Below, piece after piece: positions 326-23,249 of a stretch of 27,305 nucleotides of DNA. This DNA is from a virus. Below the pieces are notes generated by a model. The model had not been told where the DNA came from, ran no database searches, and saw nothing but the letters and a program-made list of their open reading frames with translations. Position 1 is the stretch's first letter; the number at the start of each line of letters is the position of its first letter. The stretch spans positions 1 through 27,305 of IMG/VR virus record IMGVR_UViG_3300020281_000107; one strand, given 5' to 3'. The position numbers and the translations under genes were made by a program.

Positions 326-787
326 TTATGCGTCATCTGTGAAATCGTCGTCGTCTGTACCTGATAATGTGTTATCATCACCAGCTTCTTCCATCCTAAC
401 GATACCTGTTGCGGCCGCTCCTGTCAATGCATATTGAAGTGATTGTCCGTCAAGTGCGTTTGAACCAGTAGAACTTGGTTGTGCTAATGTTACCTTACGT
501 CCAGCAATTTTGCTTACGCCGTAGGTTTCTGAATCAGCACCTTGAACAGAAATTGACATTTCACCTGATGATAAAGCCGCAGGTAATTTACCTGTTGCTA
601 AAGTGCAATCAAATGTTCCTGCTGTTTCAATTTCTTCAACACGGAATTTTTTTGATCCAAGTTGCTTCACAATATAACCTTCTTTAACACCTGAACCGTT
701 ATGAAAGTTAACTTTGATTTCGTTTCCTGAAGCTGTAGGACCTGTGCCTGCTACTCCAAAAAGTCTTTTGTTTAGTGGTCTTCCCAT
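326..787 (-). CDS. Small virion structural protein of marine T4-like phages (hypothetical)
   Basis: A 153-aa protein starting MGRPLNKRLFG, with the motif IKVNFHNGSGVKEGYIVKQL and a very acidic tail (about residues 133-153, many Asp). From memory of the family, short proteins with the MGRPLNK start, a basic SKKF segment and beta-rich repeats are frequent next to gp23 or fibre genes in T4-like cyanophages and pelagiphages, where they are usually called structural or hypothetical. The ATG is preceded by AGGAG (AATAGGAGAAAACAAATG). The gene has its own late promoter box at 882-890 and an unusually structured leader of about 95 nt. Function is unknown; virion location is inferred. Confidence 0.65.
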   Translation of the reverse strand: MGRPLNKRLFGVAGTGPTASGNEIKVNFHNGSGVKEGYIVKQLGSKKFRVEEIETAGTFDCTLATGKLPAALSSGEMSISVQGADSETYGVSKIAGRKVTLAQPSSTGSNALDGQSLQYALTGAAATGIVRMEEAGDDNTLSGTDDDDFTDDA

Positions 788-795
788 TTGTTTTC

Positions 796-881
796 TCCTA
801 TTTAGAAGTCCGATGCGGGTTCTATCCGCTACGCTGTGGGTTACAGCATAAGTCCGCCTCGCGGCTCGCTATCTGACACAT
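796..881 (-). promoter_or_regulatory. Structured 5' leader of the late 153-aa gene (three GC hairpins)
   Basis: Between the late promoter box and the start codon at 787 lie three short GC hairpins: GCGG/CCGC (815-818 with 826-829), GCTGT/ACAGC (833-837 with 843-847) and CCGC/GCGG (854-857 with 861-864). The 7-mer aagtccg occurs directly repeated at 806-812 and 850-856. Other late boxes in this window sit 20-52 nt from their start codons, so this leader is long. It could affect mRNA stability or translation; that is inference. Confidence 0.45.
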
Positions 882-2440: not shown

Positions 2441-3529
2441 TTACAATCCAGCTAAACGACGAATGTCAACGACTTTTTCATCATTTGCCTTACTACTAAC
2501 GTTAGTTTCTGTTCTGTTGCCTGTTACTTCTGTGCCTTCTGTTATTACTGCCTTTTTGGCTGGACTCTTTCCGTCAATTACTGCCGGTAGATACTTGTCA
2601 AACGCAGAACTTAATTTCTTCGTCTGAACTGATTCCAGTAAATCTGTCATTATCTCACGCTGAGTCTTGTTCAAAGGCTCAATTAGTGAGTTAATTGTTT
2701 CTTTTCTTTCTGATTCTGCAACCATCTTCTTGATTTCAGCATCTTTGCTTTCAGCAAGTGTCTGTTTTTCGTCAACTGCTGACTTTGCTTCTTCTAATTG
2801 CTTGTCTTTCAACTTAACAACCTTCATAAGTTTAGCAACTTCTGACTTTTCATTGAGATAGCTGTTTGCATATTCGTTTGCAAATGCTTCGAATAGCTTG
2901 CGTCCAAAATCATTTCTACGTGCTGTTTCAATATCATCCTTCAATTGTGACATTTCACCTTTGAGTGTATTTTCTACGATTGTTGATACTTTTGCAGCAC
3001 TCTTTTCGATAAAGTTTTTCTTAACTTTAGCAAATTGTGATTTAGCTTCACGTACTAAACGTACTTTTGTTTCTGCTACATCTTTTTTATCTTCGTTAAA
3101 TTCTGCTATTTCTTTAGCTAGTGCTTCAACAACGAATTCTTCAAGCATTGTAAATTTGCTTGCCATCTGCTTCTGATCTGTGTGTAGTTCGTTAATCTCT
3201 TTTGCAAGTGATTCTACAACAAACTTCTTCAATAGATCTGAATTTTCACGCATTTTGACAGCATATTTTGCTTTGGCTTCGGCCAACTGCTTGCGATCAT
3301 CCTGAAACTCTGCAATTTCTTCTGCTAATTTTTCTGTAATCATAGCATCAATGGCTTCAACCATTGTTGCTTTGTCATGTTCATACTTTTTAGCAAATTC
3401 TTCACGTAGCTCTGCGGTAGCTTCTAAGCGGTTTTCCTTAACTTTTGCATTCCATGCTTCTTCGATGTCACGGCGAACTTCTTCTGAAACAACGTCATTT
3501 TCGAATAATGTTTTTAGTGCATCCAACAT
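2441..3529 (-). CDS. 22: Prohead core scaffold protein gp22
   Basis: A 362-aa protein, almost wholly helical and highly charged (Lys/Glu/Ala), with heptad-like repeats such as AKEINELHTDQKQMASKF and AKEIAEFNEDKKDVAETK, which predict long coiled coils. It starts MLDALKTLFENDVVSEEVRR, as T4-like gp22 proteins do. It forms the internal core around which gp23 assembles and is later degraded by gp21. The near-repeated 'ESLAKEINEL/EALAKEIAEF' blocks (about residues 105-145) suggest internal duplication. It is longer than T4 gp22 (269 aa). An AAGGAG lies before the ATG. It is sandwiched between gp21 and gp23, the canonical T4 order. Confidence 0.92.
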   Translation of the reverse strand: MLDALKTLFENDVVSEEVRRDIEEAWNAKVKENRLEATAELREEFAKKYEHDKATMVEAIDAMITEKLAEEIAEFQDDRKQLAEAKAKYAVKMRENSDLLKKFVVESLAKEINELHTDQKQMASKFTMLEEFVVEALAKEIAEFNEDKKDVAETKVRLVREAKSQFAKVKKNFIEKSAAKVSTIVENTLKGEMSQLKDDIETARRNDFGRKLFEAFANEYANSYLNEKSEVAKLMKVVKLKDKQLEEAKSAVDEKQTLAESKDAEIKKMVAESERKETINSLIEPLNKTQREIMTDLLESVQTKKLSSAFDKYLPAVIDGKSPAKKAVITEGTEVTGNRTETNVSSKANDEKVVDIRRLAGL

Positions 3530-3543
3530 TTATTATCTCCTTA

Positions 3544-4164
3544 CTATTGGAGTCGGTTGATTATATTAACCAACGATTCTTTTAGATATCTTTGTGCCTT
3601 GGTGTCTTCTTTTGTTGCCTGAGCTAATTCATATGCCTTGTAGCCACCGCGAGCATTCATTAAATGCTCGTAGATAGGTGTAGGGTAAGCACCTGGGGCG
3701 CTTGGCTGTGCCACAACGTCCACGGTGATTATTTCAAAATCTGAAACTTCGCCGCTACCTTCAACGACGTTACCAGATCCCCTACTGGAAACACCTAGCT
3801 TACAATCCGATTCAAGCATTGTTCTCACTAATTGTCCCATAGGGGTTGGCAAAATTTTTAGTTTACCATAACCGTTTGGGCCATCCATCCACATTTCTGT
3901 GACCATATGACACACACGATCTAGGTTAATGTTTAAACCTTCTGGATGATCAACTTCTCCGAGAACTGAATATCCTCCCGAAATTTGTTCATTGAGAGTT
4001 TTGACAGCCCTACCAATTTCATTCACAGGATACACACGCTGATTAGCGTTGCGTACTCCGCCTTGTATACAAATACCCTTCATATACAAGTCTTTTCCTT
4101 CATTGGCGTTCTCAAGCACAATATTAGCTTGGTCGAATGACAAGTTCTCTCGTAAGTTTACCAT
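3544..4164 (-). CDS. 21: Prohead core protease gp21
   Basis: A 206-aa protein, close to T4 gp21 (212 aa). It matches the T4 prohead serine protease family: the His motif LGEVDHPEG (His73) and the Ser motif KLGVSSRGSG (Ser126/127) are both present, followed by the conserved ITVDVVAQPSAPGAYPTPIYE (residues 146-166). It cleaves the scaffold and trims gp23 during head maturation and is packaged in the prohead core. The ATG is preceded by only a weak AAGGAC. The gene lies between the acidic core protein and gp22, as expected. Confidence 0.93.
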   Translation of the reverse strand: MVNLRENLSFDQANIVLENANEGKDLYMKGICIQGGVRNANQRVYPVNEIGRAVKTLNEQISGGYSVLGEVDHPEGLNINLDRVCHMVTEMWMDGPNGYGKLKILPTPMGQLVRTMLESDCKLGVSSRGSGNVVEGSGEVSDFEIITVDVVAQPSAPGAYPTPIYEHLMNARGGYKAYELAQATKEDTKAQRYLKESLVNIINRLQ

Positions 4165-4186
4165 ACATTAAGTCCTTACTATTTTA

Positions 4187-5170
4187 TTAGCCGCCAATAA
4201 TTGGCTTTTTATTGTCAGCTGTCTCTGGCTTTGACTTCTTTTCAGCGCCATGGCCAGGTTCGTTTTTCATGCCTTTTTTGGCACTCATACCGCCTGGAGT
4301 ATTTCTATTTCCAGCGGAATCTTCTTTTGAAGTTGGTGCAGGACGACCTTTCTCTTCTGAACTTCCTGAAGCAATGTTAGATGCTGATCCGCCCATATCA
4401 TTTTTACCAGCTACTGGAGACTTTTTATTGTCTGCTGTGTCGCTGTGTGATACGTTAACTTTTTCAACATACTCACGCATTTGTTCAGCGTCTGACTTAG
4501 GTGACTCTTCTACTTCTTCATCTGATGCTTCATCAACTTCTTCATCTTTTGTTTCGTCAACTTCTTCATCTGTAGCTTCTAGTTCTAATGACTCTTCTTC
4601 TGCGTCATCTTCACCTTCGTCATCCATTTCCATGTCATCATCGCCGCCTTCATCATCATCATCTGACATCATTTTTTCAAACTCAGCCTTTAGATCATCA
4701 AGGGCATCTTCAAGATCAACTACACGATCTTCAATATCTTCATCGCTATCGCCTTCGTCATCCATGTCCATGTCCATATCCATGTCAGCGTCATCGCCGC
4801 CTTCCATGTCTTTCATCATGTCATCTGTTGGATCTTCTTCAGCAACTTCAAACTCATCAAGATCAAACTCTTCGTTTGTCTCTTCGTCTTTAGCTTCATC
4901 AACTTCTTCGTCGTTAGCTTCGTCTACTTCTTCATCCTTAGCTTCATCGACTTCTTCATCAGTAGCTTCATCGACTTCTTCATCTTTTGTCTCATCTACT
5001 TCTTCGTCTGTTGTTTCATCAATTTCGTCCTCTAGATCTGATTCTAGTAGTCCTTCATAAATATCACGTGATTTTTCAACCACAATTTCGTGGAATAGCT
5101 CTTCGGCACCAGCTTTGTCTTCATTGACTAGGCGCTCAAGCATTTCTTCAAATTTGTTACGATCTGCCAT
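4187..5170 (-). CDS. Acidic prohead core protein, gp67/gp68-like
   Basis: A 327-aa, extremely acidic protein. Residues 1-45 (MADRNKFEEMLERLVNEDKA and the following IVVEKSRDIYEGLL) match the N-terminus of prohead core proteins of marine T4-like phages, which sit in this place between gp20 and gp21. Residues 55-94 are five 8-residue repeats of the form DEEVDEAx, and a second array of three lies at 201-224. Between them is an Asp/Met/Gly-rich stretch. The last 100 residues (Gly/Ser/Lys/Pro-rich) look disordered. Homologues are internal head components cleaved by gp21. The ATG follows AGGAG, and a late box lies 52 nt upstream. Assignment to gp67 rather than gp68 is not certain. Confidence 0.75.
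   Translation of the reverse strand: MADRNKFEEMLERLVNEDKAGAEELFHEIVVEKSRDIYEGLLESDLEDEIDETTDEEVDETKDEEVDEATDEEVDEAKDEEVDEANDEEVDEAKDEETNEEFDLDEFEVAEEDPTDDMMKDMEGGDDADMDMDMDMDDEGDSDEDIEDRVVDLEDALDDLKAEFEKMMSDDDDEGGDDDMEMDDEGEDDAEEESLELEATDEEVDETKDEEVDEASDEEVEESPKSDAEQMREYVEKVNVSHSDTADNKKSPVAGKNDMGGSASNIASGSSEEKGRPAPTSKEDSAGNRNTPGGMSAKKGMKNEPGHGAEKKSKPETADNKKPIIGG
4499..4570 (-). repeat. Tandem 24-bp coding repeats (DEEVDExx), array 2
   Basis: Three units (DEEVDETK, DEEVDEAS, DEEVEESP) of the same 8-residue type recur about 110 residues after the first array in the same protein. The two arrays bracket an Asp-rich region, suggesting duplication or convergent expansion of an acidic spacer. Confidence 0.85.
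4889..5008 (-). repeat. Tandem 24-bp coding repeats (DEEVDEAx), array 1
   Basis: Five consecutive 8-codon units encode DEEVDE followed by TK, AT, AK, AN and AK. Degenerate units lie on both sides (about residues 47-54 and 95-102). The 24-bp units differ at synonymous positions, so this is not a very recent expansion. They lie within the acidic core protein gene. Confidence 0.9.
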
Positions 5171-6283: not shown

Positions 6284-8035
6284 TTATATCGTTTGATCAG
6301 TTGCCGGAGGTGTAGCTCCTGCGGCTGGTGTATCTCCTGTTGCAGTTTCAGGTCCTGCATCATCTGCACCCACTTCAGGTTGTTCTCCTTCTGTAGCAAT
6401 ATCTTCTGCACCTGCTATATCTGCACTAATACCTGCACTGTTAATACCTACACTTCTCATTTCTGCGGCGGCATCACCAGGTAGTGGTGTGATATTTTCA
6501 GCGTTTTCTTCTTTCCACATGCGTTCATTTTCTGCAATCTCTTCCATACTCATGCCTAAAAAGCGTTTCATTGCATATCTATTAGAAATATGCGGAATTT
6601 GTGCCATTTGTTGATATGTCGGTACTCTTGCATTGTCAACTTCTGATTGTCTATAAGCGGCAAAATTTTGAGGTGGTAAAAATTTAAGATCAAACATTGA
6701 TGTATCAATGTTGACACCCTTTTCTAACAAATATCTTTTGAATTCTTGATTGAAATCTTCTACTATAAGATTTTGTAATCTTTCACAGTAAGTATTAAAT
6801 CTTAGTTCTTGTATAAATGCAGTTCCAACTCTTCCATCCTGGAAAGCGTTAGTTCCTTCATCAGCGCCTGTAGGGAGATAGCTGGAAGGTATTCGTAAAC
6901 CGCGTACGAGCTTATTAGTAAAATATCTAAGGTCATCTATTTCTCCTAGGTTAGTTCCTCCAGGAAGTGTTTCAACCTTAGATCCACGTCCTTCTGCTGT
7001 TTGTGGAAAAAAGTAATCTTCGTTGATTGACAGCGGATTATAAGAACTGTCTATGACATTTGTGCCTCCGCCTGTTGACGATGGAATACGTCTTTGATGT
7101 ATTTCTGTCTTTACACGCTCAACAAACTGCATAGCTAAGTGTGACGGCATGTTACCCACATCAACATAGAATACTCTGCGTTCTGGTGCTCTCTGCACCC
7201 TGTAAATAATTATTGCATCTTCTAGTAGTTCTTTTTGTTTGTAAACTTTAAAAATACTTTCTAACAAACTGTTTCCAAAAGGTGCATTGTTGTCTAGTCC
7301 TTCAGACAGACTGAGATGCATCATGTTATCTGCATCCACAGCAATCTCGCCTTGTTCTTTATTGAATCTAGAACTGTTTGTTATGTTAGTATGACCAACT
7401 TGTCCTCTAGCTCCACCTATATTATATTGAGATCCTCCAGGTGAAGTTGCATCTCCATTGGTAGTATATGGTTTAGTTGCTACCAGATCTCTAAAGTTAA
7501 AATTAATATCTTTAACAATATACTGTTCTGGTTTTTTGCCTTCTGATTCGTTTACAATAATTTTTGTAACTTTAGCAGGATCTACATGAAAAAGTTTTTT
7601 TGTTTCAGGATCACGCATAAAAAACGCATCACCCATTTTAAAAACATTTCTGAAAATTCGAAACATGCGTGTTTCAAATTGATTCATCTTACACCACTGT
7701 TTTAAATATTGACCTAATATTTGAACTTCAGAATTAGTTGCATTTTTGTGGAAATTGAATGTGAAGTTGGTGCCATTTTCCTTGCTTTGCTGTGTGCAAA
7801 ACTCTGCAAGTATGTCTAGTGCGGCATTGACTTCTGAATCCATGTCCATTGTGTTGTATTGACCATAGCGTTCAACTCTATTTGGCGATCCAACATAGAC
7901 ATCTGGCAAAAAACTTGAATAATTGGAACGAGCAGGTCCTACTCCTGAAGCACTAGAAGGGCCTCCCATAGCACTATAGCCACCGTCTGGATTGTTTGTT
8001 GCGTCTAATGGTGTAAAATATTTTTTCCAACTCAT
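6284..8035 (-). CDS. 20: Portal vertex protein gp20
   Basis: A 583-aa protein (T4 gp20 is 524 aa). Conserved portal sequences are present: NTMDMDSEVNAALDILAEFC near the N-terminus, IIYRVQRAPERRVFYVDVGN in the middle, then KVETLPGGTNLGEIDDLRYF and GLRIPSSYLPTGADEGTNAF. These are the segments used to recognise gp20 in marine phages. It forms the dodecameric DNA entry ring, starts prohead assembly and docks terminase and neck. The C-terminal about 70 residues are Ala/Gly/Pro/Thr-rich and probably disordered. The ATG overlaps the stop of the upstream tape-measure-like gene by 4 nt (ATGA), suggesting translational coupling. Confidence 0.95.
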   Translation of the reverse strand: MSWKKYFTPLDATNNPDGGYSAMGGPSSASGVGPARSNYSSFLPDVYVGSPNRVERYGQYNTMDMDSEVNAALDILAEFCTQQSKENGTNFTFNFHKNATNSEVQILGQYLKQWCKMNQFETRMFRIFRNVFKMGDAFFMRDPETKKLFHVDPAKVTKIIVNESEGKKPEQYIVKDINFNFRDLVATKPYTTNGDATSPGGSQYNIGGARGQVGHTNITNSSRFNKEQGEIAVDADNMMHLSLSEGLDNNAPFGNSLLESIFKVYKQKELLEDAIIIYRVQRAPERRVFYVDVGNMPSHLAMQFVERVKTEIHQRRIPSSTGGGTNVIDSSYNPLSINEDYFFPQTAEGRGSKVETLPGGTNLGEIDDLRYFTNKLVRGLRIPSSYLPTGADEGTNAFQDGRVGTAFIQELRFNTYCERLQNLIVEDFNQEFKRYLLEKGVNIDTSMFDLKFLPPQNFAAYRQSEVDNARVPTYQQMAQIPHISNRYAMKRFLGMSMEEIAENERMWKEENAENITPLPGDAAAEMRSVGINSAGISADIAGAEDIATEGEQPEVGADDAGPETATGDTPAAGATPPATDQTI

Positions 8036-10002
8036 GCGCCTATACCTCTTAGCATGTTTCCTTTAGCATGGATTGCGTCAATCGTTTGCTTTTGATTTCT
8101 GTTTTGTGTAGTATTTATCGCTATCATTACATCTAGCTTGTCACTTACGGCAGTCATAGTTTCGTTTAGCTTGCCAAAATCTTTACTACTTTGACTAACT
8201 GCCTGTGTGATCAAATTGTTTGACTGTTCCGCACTGAGCATTGTTTCGCTACCTGTAGCTTTGATTATTTCTCCGCTGAGGGGCTGTTGGGCTTCGTTGT
8301 AATTGTATAGTCCTCCAGCGGTCATACCACCACCTGTCTTTCTACCATCTGGCTCATCATCATCTTTAAAGTAATTCATTATGCCTTTGGCTACTCTTTC
8401 AAAGAAGTTATCACCTTTATCTACTTCTCCTTGATATTGGTTAGCCAGCTCGTTTTGTTTTTGTGTTATTTCTTCCTCTGTAGCAGTAGGAGGAAGCCCT
8501 ACAGTTTCAGCTTCTGCTATTTGGTTTATACGTGTGTTGATTTTTCCTAAGGCTTCACTGAGATTTTCAAACTTTGTTGCTAATTTTGCTTTATCCAATG
8601 TATCGGCTACTGTGTCTAGTGCTTCGGTGATTGTTTTATTATCTTGTAATTGTTGACCCATAGCACCTCTGACTGCACTACTTGCATTCGCTATAGCTTG
8701 TTGTGATTCTGTGACTGCTCTCATAGCCGCTGTTGAGGACTCTGAATCAGATAATTGCTTGTTTTGTTCTGTTTGTAGGTCTGTCATTAAACTGTTAAAT
8801 ACTTTAAAATATCCGCCAGTTTCACCTAGTTTTATACCAAGATCATCTGCATGCTGTCCTATTGCATTAATTAATTTGTCCATTTCCTGTATAGATGATG
8901 CCGCAATAGCACCAGCATCTGTCACAGCGGCTGTTCTTGCAATCCTTAAGTTTTGTGTGGAATCAGCTTCCATTGCGGCCGCAGCAGTTATTTCTTTCAT
9001 AAGCTCTACTGATCTCTTCTTCCGTTCCTTAGCAGACAAAGAAGTATCTGCATTAATCTGATCCATCTGTTTAACTAAAGCCGCAGTTTTTGGATTCAAT
9101 GATGCATAATAGCTTGTTTGTTCATCTATAGGGCCGCCTAAATTAAATGTTTGTTTTAGAAGTTTTTGTGTCGCTGCCGGTAATAGAGCTAAGTCTCCTT
9201 GAATAGCTTGGAATGCTTCAGTAGAACCTTTTGCACCTTCTCTTTCGCGTAAACGCAATGTGGCATTTATGTCGCCTTCATTCATTCTAGCATCTGCTTC
9301 TTTTTGAATTTCTTTAGCATTTTTACCTGTTAGTTTTGATATGATATTTAAATTTTTTGCATACTCTTCGGCAGCTCTTAGCTGGTCTATTTCTTCCATC
9401 TGCCTAAATCTTGCAGAACGCTGATTAACAGCTAGTGCCTGTAACATAAATTCATTAGATTCTTCAATGGTCATGCCCAAACGCATAAACGTGTTTATAG
9501 GTGCTTGTTCTCCTTTGAACATTGCATCACTTAGAGCACCAAATTTTTTAACGCTGTCTGTCATGCCGCCGCCAAATTGTGACAGCAATGTACTGTTGTT
9601 TTTAACCATTTTTGCAAATTGAGGCAAAGACATGCGGGTTTCAGCCGCTGTCATTTGTAATTCTCCTAAATCGCCAGTCAAACCAGCACCAACTTTGGCT
9701 AAACCTTCAAATTCTTGTTTAGTGCCTACTACATAGTCTATTATAGCAAGTCCTGCATTTGTAAGTGTATTACCAAACGTACCTAACATACCAAGAGGTA
9801 TAGCCTTACCAAAGTCACGTATTTTGGCCGTTCCAGTAGCCACACCACCAGCTAAATCTTTAAGGTTTTTTGTAACTCCGCCATCATTCTTGTTGGCCAG
9901 TCCGAGCGTAGAAGTACTACTACCACCAGATGCAAGTTTACCTTCAAGTTTTTCTAATGCTTTTGTCAGTGCATCAATTTGAGCACCTGTTACTTCAGCC
10001 AC
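8032..10002 (-). CDS. Tail tape-measure-like protein (possible gp29 counterpart)
   Basis: A 656-aa helical protein. It has a Gly/Ala-rich, mildly hydrophobic region (about residues 50-110, e.g. AIPLGMLGTFGNTLTNAGLA), a long charged helical middle with MRLGMTIEESNEFMLQALAV, and a C-terminus rich in Gln/Asn (AINTTQNRNQKQTIDAIHAK). This composition and the 'SLPQFAKMVKNNSTLLSQFG' type segment are typical of tape-measure proteins in marine T4-like phages; the assignment is from overall character, not from a motif. The start is the GTG at 10000-10002, with AGGAG about 11 nt upstream. It stands where T4 has gp19, directly before gp20, and shares a divergent promoter region with the gp26-like gene. 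Confidence 0.6.
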   Translation of the reverse strand: MAEVTGAQIDALTKALEKLEGKLASGGSSTSTLGLANKNDGGVTKNLKDLAGGVATGTAKIRDFGKAIPLGMLGTFGNTLTNAGLAIIDYVVGTKQEFEGLAKVGAGLTGDLGELQMTAAETRMSLPQFAKMVKNNSTLLSQFGGGMTDSVKKFGALSDAMFKGEQAPINTFMRLGMTIEESNEFMLQALAVNQRSARFRQMEEIDQLRAAEEYAKNLNIISKLTGKNAKEIQKEADARMNEGDINATLRLREREGAKGSTEAFQAIQGDLALLPAATQKLLKQTFNLGGPIDEQTSYYASLNPKTAALVKQMDQINADTSLSAKERKKRSVELMKEITAAAAMEADSTQNLRIARTAAVTDAGAIAASSIQEMDKLINAIGQHADDLGIKLGETGGYFKVFNSLMTDLQTEQNKQLSDSESSTAAMRAVTESQQAIANASSAVRGAMGQQLQDNKTITEALDTVADTLDKAKLATKFENLSEALGKINTRINQIAEAETVGLPPTATEEEITQKQNELANQYQGEVDKGDNFFERVAKGIMNYFKDDDEPDGRKTGGGMTAGGLYNYNEAQQPLSGEIIKATGSETMLSAEQSNNLITQAVSQSSKDFGKLNETMTAVSDKLDVMIAINTTQNRNQKQTIDAIHAKGNMLRGIGA

Positions 10003-10053: not shown

Positions 10054-10066
10054 TCGGAGTTATAAA

Positions 10067-10924
10067 GTGAGCAGTTTTCTCGAAAAACACAAAAGACAAC
10101 CTAAATTGTTTATTGATTTACCTACACAAGGAAAATTTTATGATGCTTCTGTATGCGAAAAAGCCGAATCCTTACCCGTTTTTGGCATGACAGCAATGGA
10201 CGAAATGTTGCTACGAACTCCTGATGCACTGTTTTCAGGCGAAGCTACAGCTCAAGTTATTAAAAGTTGTATACCAGATATAAAAGATCCATGGGGGTTA
10301 GTAGGATATGACATAGACTACGTACTGTTATCTATTAGAATAGCAACATATGGAGAAACTATTCCCATTAGTACAAAATGTACAAAGTGCGACTCAGAAA
10401 ATGAAGCTGACATAAATCTGCAAAATTTATTAAAATTAGTTAATGAGTTCGAAATCAAACAATCATTTGAAATAAGAGATTTAGAATTTCATTTGATACC
10501 TATCACGTATAGAAAAACCACAGATTTTTCTATACAAAGTTACACTCTACAAAAACAAATTGCATCTGTAGATCAACTGCCTTTAACAGACAGCGAACGT
10601 GATGTAAAACTAAATGATTTGCTTCATGCATCAGCTAATCTAAACATACAGGTAGCTCTGTCTCATATTAGCGAAATTGTAGACGGCGAAGATAAAGAAG
10701 CTGATCCAGAAGTGATTAAAGAATGGGTAAGTCAAAATGATGTAGAATTCTACAACAAAATAAAAGAAACAATTATGAATATGACGGAATCTTGGAAACT
10801 ACCAACCTTTGACGTGACATGCTCCAATGAAGAATGCAAACATAGATATAAAACACAGCTAGACATGGACTACTCAAATTTTTTCGGAGCACGATCGCTC
10901 CGCTCGAGGAATCTGGTCTCTTAG
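10067..10924 (+). CDS. 26: Baseplate hub assembly protein, gp26-like (zero-frame product)
   Basis: A 285-aa protein. The pattern KLFIDLPTQGKFYD at the start, MTAMDEMLLRTPDALFSGEA and SCIPDIKDPWGLVGYDIDYV matches the T4 baseplate protein family that includes gp26. Two cysteine pairs, C105-x2-C108 and C252-x4-C257, may form a metal site. It is thought to help assemble the hub and tape measure and is probably not a main virion part. The start is the GTG at 10067 after CGGAG. The last 12 residues (after Phe273) lie beyond a slippery sequence, read GARSLRSRNLVS and look unlike the conserved body; a -1 frame product of 350 aa is likely as well. It stands opposite the tape-measure-like gene. Confidence 0.75.
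   Translation: MSSFLEKHKRQPKLFIDLPTQGKFYDASVCEKAESLPVFGMTAMDEMLLRTPDALFSGEATAQVIKSCIPDIKDPWGLVGYDIDYVLLSIRIATYGETIPISTKCTKCDSENEADINLQNLLKLVNEFEIKQSFEIRDLEFHLIPITYRKTTDFSIQSYTLQKQIASVDQLPLTDSERDVKLNDLLHASANLNIQVALSHISEIVDGEDKEADPEVIKEWVSQNDVEFYNKIKETIMNMTESWKLPTFDVTCSNEECKHRYKTQLDMDYSNFFGARSLRSRNLVS
10876..10902 (+). promoter_or_regulatory. Probable -1 programmed frameshift site
   Basis: In the gp26 frame the codons AAT TTT TTC follow an A, giving overlapping slippery heptamers A_AAT_TTT (10876-10882) and T_TTT_TTC (10879-10885). A perfect 6-bp GC hairpin CGGAGC/GCTCCG with a 6-nt loop follows at 10885-10902. The spacer is shorter than usual (2 nt from the first heptamer). Slipping joins the gp26-like protein to the startless ORF ending at 11118. 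Confidence 0.65.
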
Positions 10925-11118
10925 AACTAGCTAGAAAATACGAAAACGAAATCAAACAAATCAAAGACGATGTGTATAGACTAGGTTGGTATATGCGTGG
11001 TAGTTTTACTTACGAAGATTTGATGTTTAGAATTAGTAAAGAAGACAGAGACATTATAAATCGTATTGTAAAAGATAATATAGAAGTTGTAAAAGAAACT
11101 AAGTTGCCTTTGCTTTAG
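10885..11118 (+). CDS. -1 frame extension of the gp26-like gene (tail assembly chaperone-type domain)
   Basis: A 77-codon segment in the -1 frame after Phe273 of the gp26-like protein, ending at TAG 11116-11118. It reads ...ELARKYENEIKQIKDDVYRLG, then WYMRGSFTYEDLM, then a helical SKEDRDIINRIVKDN and a KETKLPLL tail. The frame is open only from 10852, and there is no ATG until 10993, inside the WYMRG motif, so it lacks a normal start; a GTG at 10972 would cut off part of the domain. Fusion by frameshift gives a 350-aa protein. In lambda (G/GT) and P2 (E/E') tail assembly chaperones are made this way; applying it here is inference. Confidence 0.65.
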   Translation, partial: RSTIAPLEESGLLELARKYENEIKQIKDDVYRLGWYMRGSFTYEDLMFRISKEDRDIINRIVKDNIEVVKETKLPLL

Positions 11119-12497: not shown

Positions 12498-12923
12498 CTA
12501 TTTGTTTTCTAGTAGTGCCTTACGCAACTTATCTGATCCGCCAACTCTCACATTAATAATTCCGTTGTAATAATCATCCGTCTCTAACACACGGCGGTCA
12601 AATTGTTCTCTAGCCTCTATGTAACTCATTTCTGCTCTGCTTTTGCAAAAATAAAGTATTTCTCTTGTGAATTTTTTTGGGCCTAACTTGTCTACATCCT
12701 CTTGTAATCTATCTGAAGATCCCCAATAGTCTCTCCAATCACTTTCTTTGTAGCCTCGTCTTTTATTTTTTTTGCCTTTTAATGGTGGCTTGGTAGTTTT
12801 AAACTTTGCTAGTTTTTTGCCTACATATTTTTGCCCGGTAGTGGTATTGGTAATAAGATACACAAACCCTTCATACTCTTCAGATATAGAGTTTATCACT
12901 TTACCGTTATAAGTCCACTGCAT
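12498..12923 (-). CDS. SegE-type GIY-YIG endonuclease-like protein
   Basis: A 141-aa protein. The GIY-YIG hallmark is seen as GFVYLITNTTTGQKYVGKK (about residues 19-37). A basic PPLKGKKNKRRGYKESDWRD and YWGSSDRL follow, with a later Glu in YIEAREQFD as candidate metal ligand. The layout resembles the T4 SegE-type putative homing endonucleases found widely in T4-like phages. It would cut DNA site-specifically and spread its own locus; whether it is active is unknown. It is the last protein gene before the structured noncoding region. It starts at an ATG 18 nt after the 72-aa gene. Confidence 0.75.
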   Translation of the reverse strand: MQWTYNGKVINSISEEYEGFVYLITNTTTGQKYVGKKLAKFKTTKPPLKGKKNKRRGYKESDWRDYWGSSDRLQEDVDKLGPKKFTREILYFCKSRAEMSYIEAREQFDRRVLETDDYYNGIINVRVGGSDKLRKALLENK

Positions 12924-18051: not shown

Positions 18052-20703
18052 ATGCCAATTGGAAATTTTAAACCACAGAATCTGTTAAACAGAGCAAAGG
18101 CAGGTGGATTTAGCATAGATAATGCTGTAAGCGAGATACAGTCCAAAATTCCTAATCTTCAACAAGCGGCAAATATTGATATAAACGGTACACTATCAGG
18201 AGTACAAAGTCAAGCACAGTCAGCAATCAATAGTGCTGTTCAAAATCTTGCAGGCAAAGTAAAATTGCCAAGCGGTTTAGATTTGATTGGATTGACAGGC
18301 ATAGGTAATATAAACCAGAACGGCGGAGCAAGTGCTGTAGATGACTTAGGCGGTAGCCTCCCATTCCCTAACCAATTAGAACCTTTTTCTAGTATGAATT
18401 ATATTTTCACACTAGGATGTTTAACACCATATGAATTAAATTATCCAGATTTGACCTATAGGTATGCAGATCCTGAGATAATAATATTGAAATCAGGAGG
18501 AGGAGCAGGACAAAAAAAGGTTAGGACTGCTTTTGAACAATCTGGTGCTGTAGAATATTTTATAGACAATGTAAACATTAAAACTATAATTTCACCTATG
18601 GACGGAAGTAGATCCACAAACGCTACTAACATATTTTTTGAAGTTCTTGAACCCTATAGTATGGGAATATTTTTACAAACTTTAAATCTCGCCGCGAAAC
18701 AAGCAGGATATAAAAATTATGTTGGCTCTCCGTATGTACTAAGTGTTGAATTTGTAGGATTTGATGATGACGGAAATTATATGCGTCCTCCAAAAGCAAG
18801 ACGTATTTTTCCATTAAATTTAATGAAGGTAGATTTTAGTGTACAAGAAGGAGGAAGCTCATACAATGTAAGAGCAGTGCCTTATCACGAAACAGCTTTT
18901 TCTGATGAAGTACAAAAAGTCAAAACAGATATTAGTTTAACAGGCACAACAGTTGGTGAATTACTACAATCTGGACCAAGAAGTTTAGCAACCGTGTTGA
19001 ATGATAGAGAAGTAAGACAAGAGGAAGCTAAACAAACACCAAGAGGAGATCAGTTTGTAGTTGCTTTCCCACAAGAATTATCCAGTGTCACAGAAGTGCT
19101 ACTTGGAGCTTTAGATAATCAACAAGGAGCTACAACCAAGTCGAAACTTTCACAAGCTGGCGAGGAAATTAGAGAATTCACAGAAGAAAATAAAGATAAG
19201 GCTATAAAACTTGCATTTGGTGATATAGAAGATGACGAACTGCTTGAAGTAGCAGAAAGAGAACTTCAAAATGTAAAAGGATTCGTGTTAAAGCGTAGTG
19301 AGTTTGGTGAACAAATTAGATCTAACGCTGAAAATAGTATCAACATTAATGACATTGGAAATTCTAAAATAGTAAAAAGTTTTTTAGATGGGGGCGATGT
19401 TCCTTTTGGTAGACCTAAATTCACAGAAGTAAAAGATAAACCAGGCGTTTTCAGTAGAGGTAGTCTATCAATTAGTGAAGATCAAAGAACTTTTACATTT
19501 GCTGCAGGTACAAAAATACAAGACATAATAGAAGAAATAATAATCTTATCAGATTATGGTAGAAAACTAGCTGAAAACGTAAACAATCCTGATGCAAATG
19601 GTATGGTAGATTGGTATCGGGTAGAAGTAAACATTTATATGGTTGATGAACCTGAAGGAGTAAATTTTAACGGCAAGTATCCTAAAGTATATGTATATCA
19701 AGTCGTGCCTTATAAAGTGCATGTAAGTGCAATGGCCAATCCTAACACAGCAACACCTGGGATAGATCAAATAAGGCAACAAACTTGTAAAGAATACAAT
19801 TACATATATACTGGTGCTAATAAAGACATTTTAGATTTTGACATTGAAATAAATTATGCATATTATCTTGCAATTCATGCAGACAAAGGACAACTAAACG
19901 CAGATAGTAAACTGGCTGGACAAAATAATAGTGTTGCAGGAAATGACGAGCAACCAACTGCTGTTGCTGAAGGAAATAATGCTAACAGTACCTCTGGAAC
20001 AAGCCCTACTATCGAAACCACAGGAGTGCCAAATTCATCAGGTGGAGGCGGCGGTGAAACTCATGCACAGAATCAAGTTGCTAGGCAGTATAATGAAGCA
20101 ATAACAAATGGTACAGATTTAATTGTTATTCATATTACTATAATGGGCGATCCATACTATATTGCTGATAGCGGAATGGGTAATTATAATGCTGAGTCAG
20201 ATCCTGCATCAATTAATTTGACAAAAGATGGCACAATAGAATATCAACGTAGTGAAGTTGACATTACTCTTAATTTTAGAACGCCCATTGATACTGGCGA
20301 AAATTGGATGGAATTTCCAGGTCTCGGAACTAAACCAGTAGGAGCATTTAGCGGAGTATATAGAGTAATGCTAGTTGAAAATGATTTTTCAGATGGCAAG
20401 TTTACACAGCGTTTAAAGTGTATACGTAGAAAGAACCAAGATACAGATACAAAGGCGGTTCCGGCACAAGATGGAAACGGAATGGTCAAAGACGGTGATA
20501 AAGAAAACAACTTAAATGAAAGCACAGACCCAACAGGAAATCCAACACAAGTGCCTACTAATAAAAATGATCAAAAAACAAGTAAAACTAACAGTACTGG
20601 CGGAGGAGCAAGCCAGACTACAACAAGTGCTGACACTAACAAAGGCAGTAATCCTAAACCAAAAGAAGCAACAGTAGTGAATAGAATTAGAGGAACATTA
20701 TAA
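18052..20703 (+). CDS. Large baseplate hub/structural protein (possible gp27-type role)
   Basis: An 883-aa protein between gp53 and gp5. Residues 1-105 are Asn/Gln/Ser-rich helices (IQSKIPNLQQAANIDINGTL), residues 110-300 contain FSSMNYIFTLGCLTPYELNY and YVLSVEFVGFDDDGNYMRPP then ARRIFPLNLMKVDFSVQEGG, and a second folded region near 480-610 contains DIIEEIIILSDYGRKLAENV and YRVEVNIYMVDE. Low-complexity linkers lie near 630-670 (Gly-rich) and 795-870 (Thr/Asn/Lys). In related marine phages a large structural protein occupies this spot; the neighbouring gp5 and the absence of a separate gp27 suggest it carries the hub function. That is inference. It overlaps the gp5 start by 1 nt. Confidence 0.6.
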   Translation: MPIGNFKPQNLLNRAKAGGFSIDNAVSEIQSKIPNLQQAANIDINGTLSGVQSQAQSAINSAVQNLAGKVKLPSGLDLIGLTGIGNINQNGGASAVDDLGGSLPFPNQLEPFSSMNYIFTLGCLTPYELNYPDLTYRYADPEIIILKSGGGAGQKKVRTAFEQSGAVEYFIDNVNIKTIISPMDGSRSTNATNIFFEVLEPYSMGIFLQTLNLAAKQAGYKNYVGSPYVLSVEFVGFDDDGNYMRPPKARRIFPLNLMKVDFSVQEGGSSYNVRAVPYHETAFSDEVQKVKTDISLTGTTVGELLQSGPRSLATVLNDREVRQEEAKQTPRGDQFVVAFPQELSSVTEVLLGALDNQQGATTKSKLSQAGEEIREFTEENKDKAIKLAFGDIEDDELLEVAERELQNVKGFVLKRSEFGEQIRSNAENSININDIGNSKIVKSFLDGGDVPFGRPKFTEVKDKPGVFSRGSLSISEDQRTFTFAAGTKIQDIIEEIIILSDYGRKLAENVNNPDANGMVDWYRVEVNIYMVDEPEGVNFNGKYPKVYVYQVVPYKVHVSAMANPNTATPGIDQIRQQTCKEYNYIYTGANKDILDFDIEINYAYYLAIHADKGQLNADSKLAGQNNSVAGNDEQPTAVAEGNNANSTSGTSPTIETTGVPNSSGGGGGETHAQNQVARQYNEAITNGTDLIVIHITIMGDPYYIADSGMGNYNAESDPASINLTKDGTIEYQRSEVDITLNFRTPIDTGENWMEFPGLGTKPVGAFSGVYRVMLVENDFSDGKFTQRLKCIRRKNQDTDTKAVPAQDGNGMVKDGDKENNLNESTDPTGNPTQVPTNKNDQKTSKTNSTGGGASQTTTSADTNKGSNPKPKEATVVNRIRGTL

Positions 20704-23249
20704 TGTCAGAACAAACTAGAAGCCCTTCTGGACAGGTAATAAAAGATCCTGGTCCTTTTCTTGCTAAAGTTGTTAATCACCTTGATGCAAAGTATATGGG
20801 CTCACTAGAAGTTGAGCTATTGAAAGTAGTAGAAAGTGGCAATTCTACACAAGGTACAGGTGAAATAATTACTGTAAGATATATGAGTCCTTTCTACGGT
20901 GTGACACCTTTTTCTGGTTTAACTAAAAATGAAGGGTACAAATACACACAAAAAAGTTATGGCATGTGGGCAATACCGCCAGATATAGGCACTCAAGTGC
21001 TTGTTATTTTTGCTGAAGGTAATCGCAGCAGAGGATTTTGGATAGGGTGTGTGCAAGACGAATATATGAATTTTATGCTGCCAGGCATGGCAAGTTCCTT
21101 TTATAACGATGAAGATACTTCTAAACCTTATCCTGTAGGTGAGTACAATAAAAAATTAGAAACTGGAGCAGGAAAAAATCCTACAAAGTTTATAAAGCCG
21201 CATAGTGACGACCAAGAATTAAATTTAAAAACACAAGGATTATTTGAAGACAGTATTAGAGGAACAAGTACTTCTAGTGCTAGACGAGAAGTGCCTAGTA
21301 TGGTTTTTGGATGGAGTACTCCTGGGGCCGAAGATAGACGAGATGGCGCACCAAAAACACAATACGGTAGTCCAGGTTCAGGCGGAACACAAAGATTTTA
21401 CAATAGACTAGGTGGATCTACATTTGTTATGGATGATGGCGACCCTGCAATTTTGCGTACAGGTTATGCTAGTGAAACCAAAGCAGAATATGTAAGTGTA
21501 GAAGAAGATAAAGACAAAAAAGGTTTTGCAGATGTACCACATAACGAACTGATTAGACTTCGCACACGTACAGGACATCAACTGTTGATGCACAACTCTG
21601 AAGATTTAATTTACATAGGTAATGCTAAAGGAACTGCTTGGATAGAACTTACTAGTTTGGGTAAGATAGATATCTACAGTAGAGATAGTATTAGCATCCA
21701 TACTGAATTAGATTTAAACATTGCGGCTGACAGAGATATCAATATGTATGCAGGAAAAAACTTTAATTTGAATACAGGTGAAAATACCAAAATAAGGACA
21801 GGGCAACGCACCGATATTAAAACAGGCATAGATATGAATTTTGAAGTTGGTGCAGAACTTAACATGTTAGTAGGTGACACAGCAAATTTTAGCACAGGTA
21901 AAGATCTAAACATTAACGTCACTGCCAATGGCAAGTTAACTGTTGAAGAAGCCTTAGATATAAATTCAGGCACTACAACAAAAGTATTAGTGGGTAGTGA
22001 ACTAGATATTAAATCAAAGACTAATACAAGATTTACACAAGAAGGCACACTAGATATAAACACCACAGGAGCATCAAAGATTACAGGTGCCACTATTGAT
22101 TTGAATCCTAGTAGTCCGGCTGCTGTTGCTAATGAAGCGGATGTAGCACCAAAAGCTAAAAAAGCTCTAGACGCCGCCTTTCCGGTAAGACTACCAGAAC
22201 ATGAACCTTGGTTAGGTCATGAACATTTAGATCCAACAATTTTTACAGCAACTAACACTAAAGCTAATGATGCACCTAGTTATGTTAACAGAAATGCTAG
22301 TCCTCCAATTGAAACCGAAAATGATCAACGTCCAACCACAACACAATGGCGAGAACAGGCAAATGCAAAAACAGAAATAAAAGATGGAAAAACAGTTGAA
22401 GTTGAAGGCAACGGAATCGTTCCAGGTCAAGAAGGTGAAATAGGCGATCAACCAAATAAACCAGCTCCTCCGTCAGATATGGAAAGATACTTTATAAATC
22501 AACTTTGTACTAAACTAGGACTTGATGAAACAAAAAGTGCAAAACAAGGTGGCAACGCAGAAGCAGTTGGAATGGCAATGGCACAAATACATCATGAATG
22601 TACGTTTGAACCAAAAAGTGAAATTTTAAATTATAGTGCGAGTGCATTATTAAGAGTTTTTGATTATAGACTTAAACTTGCGGCAGCAAAAGAATTTAAT
22701 AAACCTAAGAACAAAGTCACTACGAATGATAAGGTTAGGATAGCAAATGCTATTGCACGAAAGCCAGCAACGATTGGTAACACAGTATATGGAGGCAGAT
22801 ATGGAAATGCCCGAGATGAAGGATACAAGTATAGAGGTAGAGGAATGATACAAATCACGTTCAAAGACAACTATACTACATACGGTAAAAAATCAGGTCA
22901 TCCTGAAATTGTTCAAAATCCAGATCTTGCTAATGATCCTGTGATTGCAACTAACATTGCTGTTGCTTATATGGAATCAAAAAATATTAATTGGTCTAGT
23001 AGTAGTGCAAGCAGTCTTGCTAATCAATTTAAATCTGCTGTTGGATATTCTGATGCGATTGATCCAAAAACTGGTTTAACACAAACACAACTACGCCAAA
23101 AAACAGGCACTGGTTACTTCTACAAATTAATAAACGGGCAGTATACAAGATTGACAAGCCTAACATTAGAACCTGATGGAACAAACGTAAAGGCAGAACC
23201 TTTACCTCCTGTGAATACCAACAAACAAGAGGTTAAAGGAGCAAGGTAA
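20703..23249 (+). CDS. 5: Baseplate hub spike gp5 with C-terminal GH19-like lysin domain
   Basis: An 848-aa cell-puncturing protein. The N-terminal OB-fold domain (about 15-135) contains KSYGMWAIPPDIGTQVLVIF and NRSRGFWIGCVQDEYMNF. Then PHNELIRLRTRTGHQLLMHN (279-298) leads into a triple-stranded beta-helix of short repeats (about 315-470, e.g. DINMYAGKNFNLNTGENTKI). After a Pro/Thr/Asn linker, residues about 590-800 resemble GH19 chitinase/endolysin: AQIHHECTFEP with Glu632 as likely catalytic acid, and YKYRGRGMIQITFKDNY (708-724). In T4 gp5 the lysozyme lies between OB fold and helix and belongs to another family; here none is seen there. It would cut peptidoglycan as the tail penetrates. 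Coupled to the upstream gene by a 1-nt overlap. Confidence 0.88.
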   Translation: MSEQTRSPSGQVIKDPGPFLAKVVNHLDAKYMGSLEVELLKVVESGNSTQGTGEIITVRYMSPFYGVTPFSGLTKNEGYKYTQKSYGMWAIPPDIGTQVLVIFAEGNRSRGFWIGCVQDEYMNFMLPGMASSFYNDEDTSKPYPVGEYNKKLETGAGKNPTKFIKPHSDDQELNLKTQGLFEDSIRGTSTSSARREVPSMVFGWSTPGAEDRRDGAPKTQYGSPGSGGTQRFYNRLGGSTFVMDDGDPAILRTGYASETKAEYVSVEEDKDKKGFADVPHNELIRLRTRTGHQLLMHNSEDLIYIGNAKGTAWIELTSLGKIDIYSRDSISIHTELDLNIAADRDINMYAGKNFNLNTGENTKIRTGQRTDIKTGIDMNFEVGAELNMLVGDTANFSTGKDLNINVTANGKLTVEEALDINSGTTTKVLVGSELDIKSKTNTRFTQEGTLDINTTGASKITGATIDLNPSSPAAVANEADVAPKAKKALDAAFPVRLPEHEPWLGHEHLDPTIFTATNTKANDAPSYVNRNASPPIETENDQRPTTTQWREQANAKTEIKDGKTVEVEGNGIVPGQEGEIGDQPNKPAPPSDMERYFINQLCTKLGLDETKSAKQGGNAEAVGMAMAQIHHECTFEPKSEILNYSASALLRVFDYRLKLAAAKEFNKPKNKVTTNDKVRIANAIARKPATIGNTVYGGRYGNARDEGYKYRGRGMIQITFKDNYTTYGKKSGHPEIVQNPDLANDPVIATNIAVAYMESKNINWSSSSASSLANQFKSAVGYSDAIDPKTGLTQTQLRQKTGTGYFYKLINGQYTRLTSLTLEPDGTNVKAEPLPPVNTNKQEVKGAR

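Follow-up and report, generated by a model that had tools for sequence, protein, structure and literature searches.

A gp26-like gene in an uncultured marine virus runs into a stretch of six thymines beyond which a second reading frame stays open. Does this locus encode a single protein followed by an unrelated small gene, or does it yield two forms of one protein? The initial annotation, made from the letters alone, had proposed a programmed -1 frameshift in a gp26-like hub assembly gene. Our comparison with related loci supports this proposal, as the slip site, the -1 offset and the -1 domain are kept as far as complete isolate genomes. Judging from these comparisons, the locus is very probably a single gene from which two forms of a tail assembly chaperone are made via a -1 slip, in a manner resembling lambda G/GT.

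The gene and its neighbor

The window, i.e. the whole stretch of DNA analyzed here, is an IMG/VR record of 27,305 bases. Besides the gp26-like gene it encodes a gp20 portal, a gp23 capsid protein and a gp25 wedge protein and is therefore a fragment of a T4-related myovirus. The following features define the gene and its surroundings:

8032-10002 (-): divergent tape-measure-like gene, 656 aa, named from its kinship to the neighbor gene of relatives and from the RaK2 annotation
10056-10059 (+): GGAG, probable ribosome-binding site 7 nt before the GTG, read from the sequence
10067-10924 (+): gp26-like gene with GTG start, predicted short chaperone form (TAC-N) of 285 aa (PF12322, phrog_150)
10922-10924 (+): frame-0 stop TAG, which ends the 285-aa ORF

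The gp26-like ORF matches the T4_baseplate profile PF12322 with 59.7 bits, above the curated cut-off of 24.5 bits, and phrog_150 (baseplate hub) with E=8e-17. The gene on the opposite strand is akin by sequence to the gene found at the same place in many relatives, RaK2-type phages included, and its RaK2 counterpart is noted as similar to tape measure protein. Its tape measure role rests on annotation, and we refer to it as tape-measure-like. That the two genes adjoin each other, as had been pointed out before, was confirmed, and the arrangement is kept in relatives; the genes are divergent, not co-directional.

Elsewhere in the window, 785-865 (-) matches the Rfam cis-regulatory RNA freshwater-2 (RF02980, 70 bits); the match separates the gp23 capsid gene from the minus-strand gene that comes next. 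A SegE-type GIY-YIG endonuclease (PF19835) is encoded at 12498-12923 (-) and adjoins gp46/gp47-like recombination genes. Further, 20703-23249 (+) encodes a baseplate spike-like protein that combines an OB domain with a glycoside hydrolase 19 (chitinase-like) domain.

Slippery site and -1 frame

Close to its end, the gp26-like gene contains these elements:

10876-10882 (+): first slippery heptamer, A AAT TTT, in X XXY YYZ register
10879-10885 (+): second slippery heptamer, T TTT TTC, the conserved one and, from the family comparison, the probable shift site
10885-11118 (+): -1 frame extension of 77 codons plus TAG, the predicted C-terminal domain of the 350-aa form, supported by pN/pS and a structural model

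The frame-0 codons at the site are AAT (10877-10879), TTT (10880-10882) and TTC (10883-10885), which places both overlapping heptamers in register, as originally described. The -1 frame is closed by the TAG at 11116-11118, 77 codons after position 10885, and contains no ATG, GTG or TTG from the last upstream stop to about 25 codons beyond the heptamer. An open -1 frame of 77 codons lacking a start codon of its own had been predicted and was found, and the predicted product sizes of 285 and 350 aa proved exact. When the bases of the -1 stretch were shuffled, 77 open codons were seen in 0.09% of cases; conservation in more than 100 contigs is a stronger argument for the -1 ORF than these odds.

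Based on this arrangement, most ribosomes would stay in frame 0 and stop at 10924, resulting in the 285-aa short form. A fraction would slip back by one base with two Phe-tRNAs on U UUU UUC (10879-10885) and continue in the -1 frame to 11118, yielding a 350-aa form that carries a three-helix domain in addition. Slipping presumably takes place at a useful rate in the host.

Conservation across relatives

A scan of viral contigs yielded 66 loci and a tblastn search against phage genomes 63 records. Counting the window, the gene end was readable in 79 loci, and 76 of them had an in-frame T6 heptamer together with the -1 ORF or domain. Unless the contig stopped earlier, the -1 ORF ended 57-75 codons beyond the frame-0 stop. 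In a second scan of contigs, both parts were carried by 36 of 38 additional loci, always in the -1 frame and always with TTTTTTC. The complete isolates RaK2, 121Q, PA5oct, GAP32, CBB, BF, Atu_ph07, Phosso and SCTP-2 likewise possess heptamer and -1 domain. The slippery sequence and the frame offset are thus conserved across these relatives, as the initial annotation would lead one to expect. A frame break at a homopolymer run in a metagenome contig could also mean that a continuous gene was broken by faulty sequencing or assembly, and a continuous version does exist in two contigs (L037 and L038, discussed below). This explanation is excluded, as more than 100 contigs and the complete isolate genomes share the site and its offset. 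A very distant gp26-like gene in an uncultured 484-kb phage (L082, LR756508.1) has neither a slippery site nor a clear -1 domain, and a long-form chaperone was not found in this phage.

The loci with heptamer and -1 ORF were grouped at 80% identity into 31 families, which were chosen for holding T6. The heptamer reads TTTTTTC in 30 families and TTTTTTT in one (XacN1), the Phe codon pair accordingly being TTT-TTC in 30 of 31. Different residues (D, N, S, H, R, A, Y) precede Phe-Phe, while their codon always ends in T. Under pooled codon usage and with relatedness ignored, the odds are about 10^-7 for the codons seen and about 10^-21 for all families having TTT-TTC; as the families were chosen for T6, both values describe the constraint around the site and not the frequency of T6. 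The additional A AAT TTT heptamer of the window also occurs in L002-L007, L011-L014, L017 and L018.

With a T6 run as the constant feature, the long form might alternatively stem from edited transcripts generated by RNA polymerase slipping on these six bases. However, six T are short for efficient transcriptional slippage, and the observed constraint reaches the X XXY YYZ register and the C at the seventh base. Together with a stem at ribosomal spacing in a related clade (see below), this makes polymerase slippage a very improbable source of the long form compared with slipping of the ribosome.

Downstream RNA structure

A downstream stimulatory RNA structure is a common, not a universal, component of -1 frameshifting of the lambda G/GT type. 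In the window, the candidate is:

10885-10902 (+): 6-bp hairpin CGGAGC-ACGATC-GCTCCG of doubtful role, -10.1 kcal/mol, z -3.8

This hairpin, reported by the initial annotation as following the heptamer at once, is present but neither conserved nor canonically spaced. Its first base coincides with the heptamer's last, leaving zero spacer, and the hairpin is lost in L002, the closest relative of the window (z +1.8). It is therefore not a canonical conserved stimulator, and the idea that it would be kept across gp26 loci along with the slippery sequence has to be given up. In the window, no downstream structure combined conservation with canonical spacing.

In the set of 31 families, folding was better than in shuffled sequences for 50-nt stretches whose first base lies 7-12 nt past the heptamer start (mean z of -1.5 to -1.8), while upstream stretches of the same families showed no better folding than shuffles. 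In a related clade of 23 relatives, a 14-bp stem begins 6 nt downstream of the heptamer. At this position 83% of cells are paired, compared with 42-51% when the stem is slid, and double changes are seen at two inner pairs; for this clade, RNAalifold predicted no more than a weak structure. This stem speaks for ribosomal frameshifting in the family.

Selection on the -1 domain and the question of a separate gene

Past the frame-0 stop, the -1 domain has a pN/pS of 0.14 between the window and L002; in 24 near pairs the values are mostly 0.0-0.3, and changes fall mainly at third positions. The -1 domain is under purifying selection.

Annotators have treated the -1 ORF as a separate hypothetical gene, as in Phosso, 121Q and BF, or have omitted it. 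Ribosomes that terminate at the frame-0 stop could reinitiate on a nearby ATG to translate such a small gene, and an ATG does overlap the stop in some relatives (GGATGA, e.g. L010, L024 and L035), while Pseudomonas phage Cygsa01 shows TAATG and no heptamer. However, in 14 of the 31 families, namely the window and 13 others, the second ORF has no ATG, GTG or TTG within reach where a separate ORF would have to start. In the remaining families start codons near the junction lack Shine-Dalgarno matches. Further, the heptamer is kept where the ATG is not, and L037 and L038 encode the -1 domain only as a fusion. Based on start codons, heptamer conservation and selection, we rejected the reading of the -1 ORF as an independent gene, and we regard reinitiation as a highly unlikely account of the locus. 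In case of Cygsa01 (L088, 2572-3482), where the second ORF starts with the ATG overlapping the stop, there was possibly a switch from frameshifting to reinitiation.

Fold modelling covered the window and IMG/VR loci. The C domain of the window gave a confident three-helix model (pLDDT 86), for which, taken in isolation, Foldseek returned nothing significant; the fusion fold had no PDB match at E<=0.001. Likeness to the gp26 fold was tested on a relative, the natural fusion of L037, whose model matches 'Baseplate hub assembly protein, bacteriophage T4-like' with E=2.6e-21 and Aeromonas phage 25 gp26 with E=5e-6.

A lineage with two genes

Neither of the identical loci L037 and L038, which lie on two contigs of 260 and 148 kb, contains a heptamer. 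In L037, a 350-aa single-frame fusion of N and C parts (2968-4020) is followed in tandem by an N-only gene (ATG at 4072, 272 aa). The pair spans 2968-4890 and, in L037 and L038, adjoins the same divergent tape-measure-like gene. Relatives with both parts in one frame had been named as a finding that would speak against a programmed frameshift. Such a fusion does exist here, but a separate N-only copy stands alongside it, which fits a need for both products: since the lineage carries a single-frame fusion as well as an N-only copy, both proteins are evidently needed. In a tree, which has long branches, both L037 copies fall inside the frameshifting clade and apart from T4 gp26 and gp51. The split in L037/L038 therefore looks independent of that in T4, and the pair is, by this placement, probably an independent counterpart of T4 gp51/gp26. 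It seems likely that the lineage dropped the frameshift via gene duplication, with one copy becoming a permanent fusion (350 aa) and the other N-only (272 aa). PMC10885494 describes one short and one long gene in some T4-like phages, a solution of the same kind.

Relationship to T4 and other phages

Both gp26 and gp51 of T4 belong to PF12322. T4 gp51 consists of the N domain and a short C region and thus represents a long form; T4 gene 26 has no -1 extension of the kind seen in the window and no T6 heptamer. T4 genes 26 and 51 are two separate divergent genes, whereas the window has one gene read in two frames; L037/L038 conforms to the two-gene scheme while the window does not. The C-terminus of gp51 is found in phrog_634 ('baseplate hub assembly catalyst'), as is the -1 product of the cyanophage Sf-FS3 (a Synechococcus phage), which follows T TTT TTC. 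Heptamer and -1 extension also occur in Rhizobium phages IC12 and RL38J1 and in Aeromonas phage phiAS5. In profile comparisons, the N and C families matched T4 gp26/gp51 weakly, with a probability of 31% for the window-type C domain against the gp51 C-terminus. The proposed tie of the window family to T4 gp26/gp51 rests on the Pfam and PHROG profiles, and the link between its C domain and the gp51-type C domain is at most suggestive. The RaK2-type and other jumbo phages (RaK2, 121Q, GAP32, CBB, PA5oct, Atu_ph07 and SCTP-2) have the same heptamer and -1 domain as the window and, in most of them, the same divergent large neighbor gene, at about 23-31% protein identity to the window.

Lambda (gpG/gpGT) and P2 (E/E') produce a short and a fused product, as predicted for the window, by shifting to the -1 frame late in a gene that adjoins the tape measure gene. 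The analogy to these phages drawn by the initial annotation holds for the mechanism and does not imply homology: the likeness is one of architecture, as the modelled fold has no PDB match. The lambda chaperone gene is also co-directional with its tape measure gene, in contrast to the divergent arrangement in the window. By analogy with gpG and gpGT, the short form may bind the tape measure protein and the long form may recruit tail-tube subunits. Given that databases name the family 'baseplate hub' and that the CBB homologue is annotated as a structural protein, a genuine frameshift could instead serve to make a structural baseplate hub protein. We consider this rather unlikely, as short and long forms encoded beside a tape-measure-like gene follow the chaperone pattern and gp26 and gp51 have been proposed as chaperones or cofactors (PMC9024508). 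The sequence comparisons back each of these elements of a frameshifted chaperone gene: a conserved slip site, the -1 offset, selection on the -1 domain and a need for two forms.

Chaperone frameshifting in this T4-like gene family is already known, and the window adds one further member. Vladimirov, Gautam and Davidson reportedly found in 2022 that frameshifting is conserved in several T4-like groups and assigned T4 genes 26 and 51. A 2016 review had described G-T frameshifting as widespread in long-tailed phages 'except T4' (PMC5009743). Vladimirov et al. 2022 (Virology 566:9), who identified T4-like chaperones, are credited in PMC10885494 with the two-gene arrangement of some T4-like phages and in PMC12846349 with poly-T -1 shift signals in TAC-N genes of T4-like phages. 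The window shares this T4-like setting and represents an uncultured marine member with a double heptamer.

Conclusions

In conclusion, our analysis widens the range of tail-chaperone frameshifting to uncultured T4-like viruses and RaK2-type jumbo phages. This indicates that in many annotated genomes the gene named 'baseplate hub' and the small 'hypothetical' ORF behind it should be joined. If the L037/L038 split is independent of T4 gp26/gp51, it would represent a convergent replacement of recoding by gene duplication. Comparing this lineage with its frameshifting relatives sets side by side two ways to fix the ratio of short to long chaperone, and L037/L038, given such independence from T4, would be a natural experiment on that ratio.
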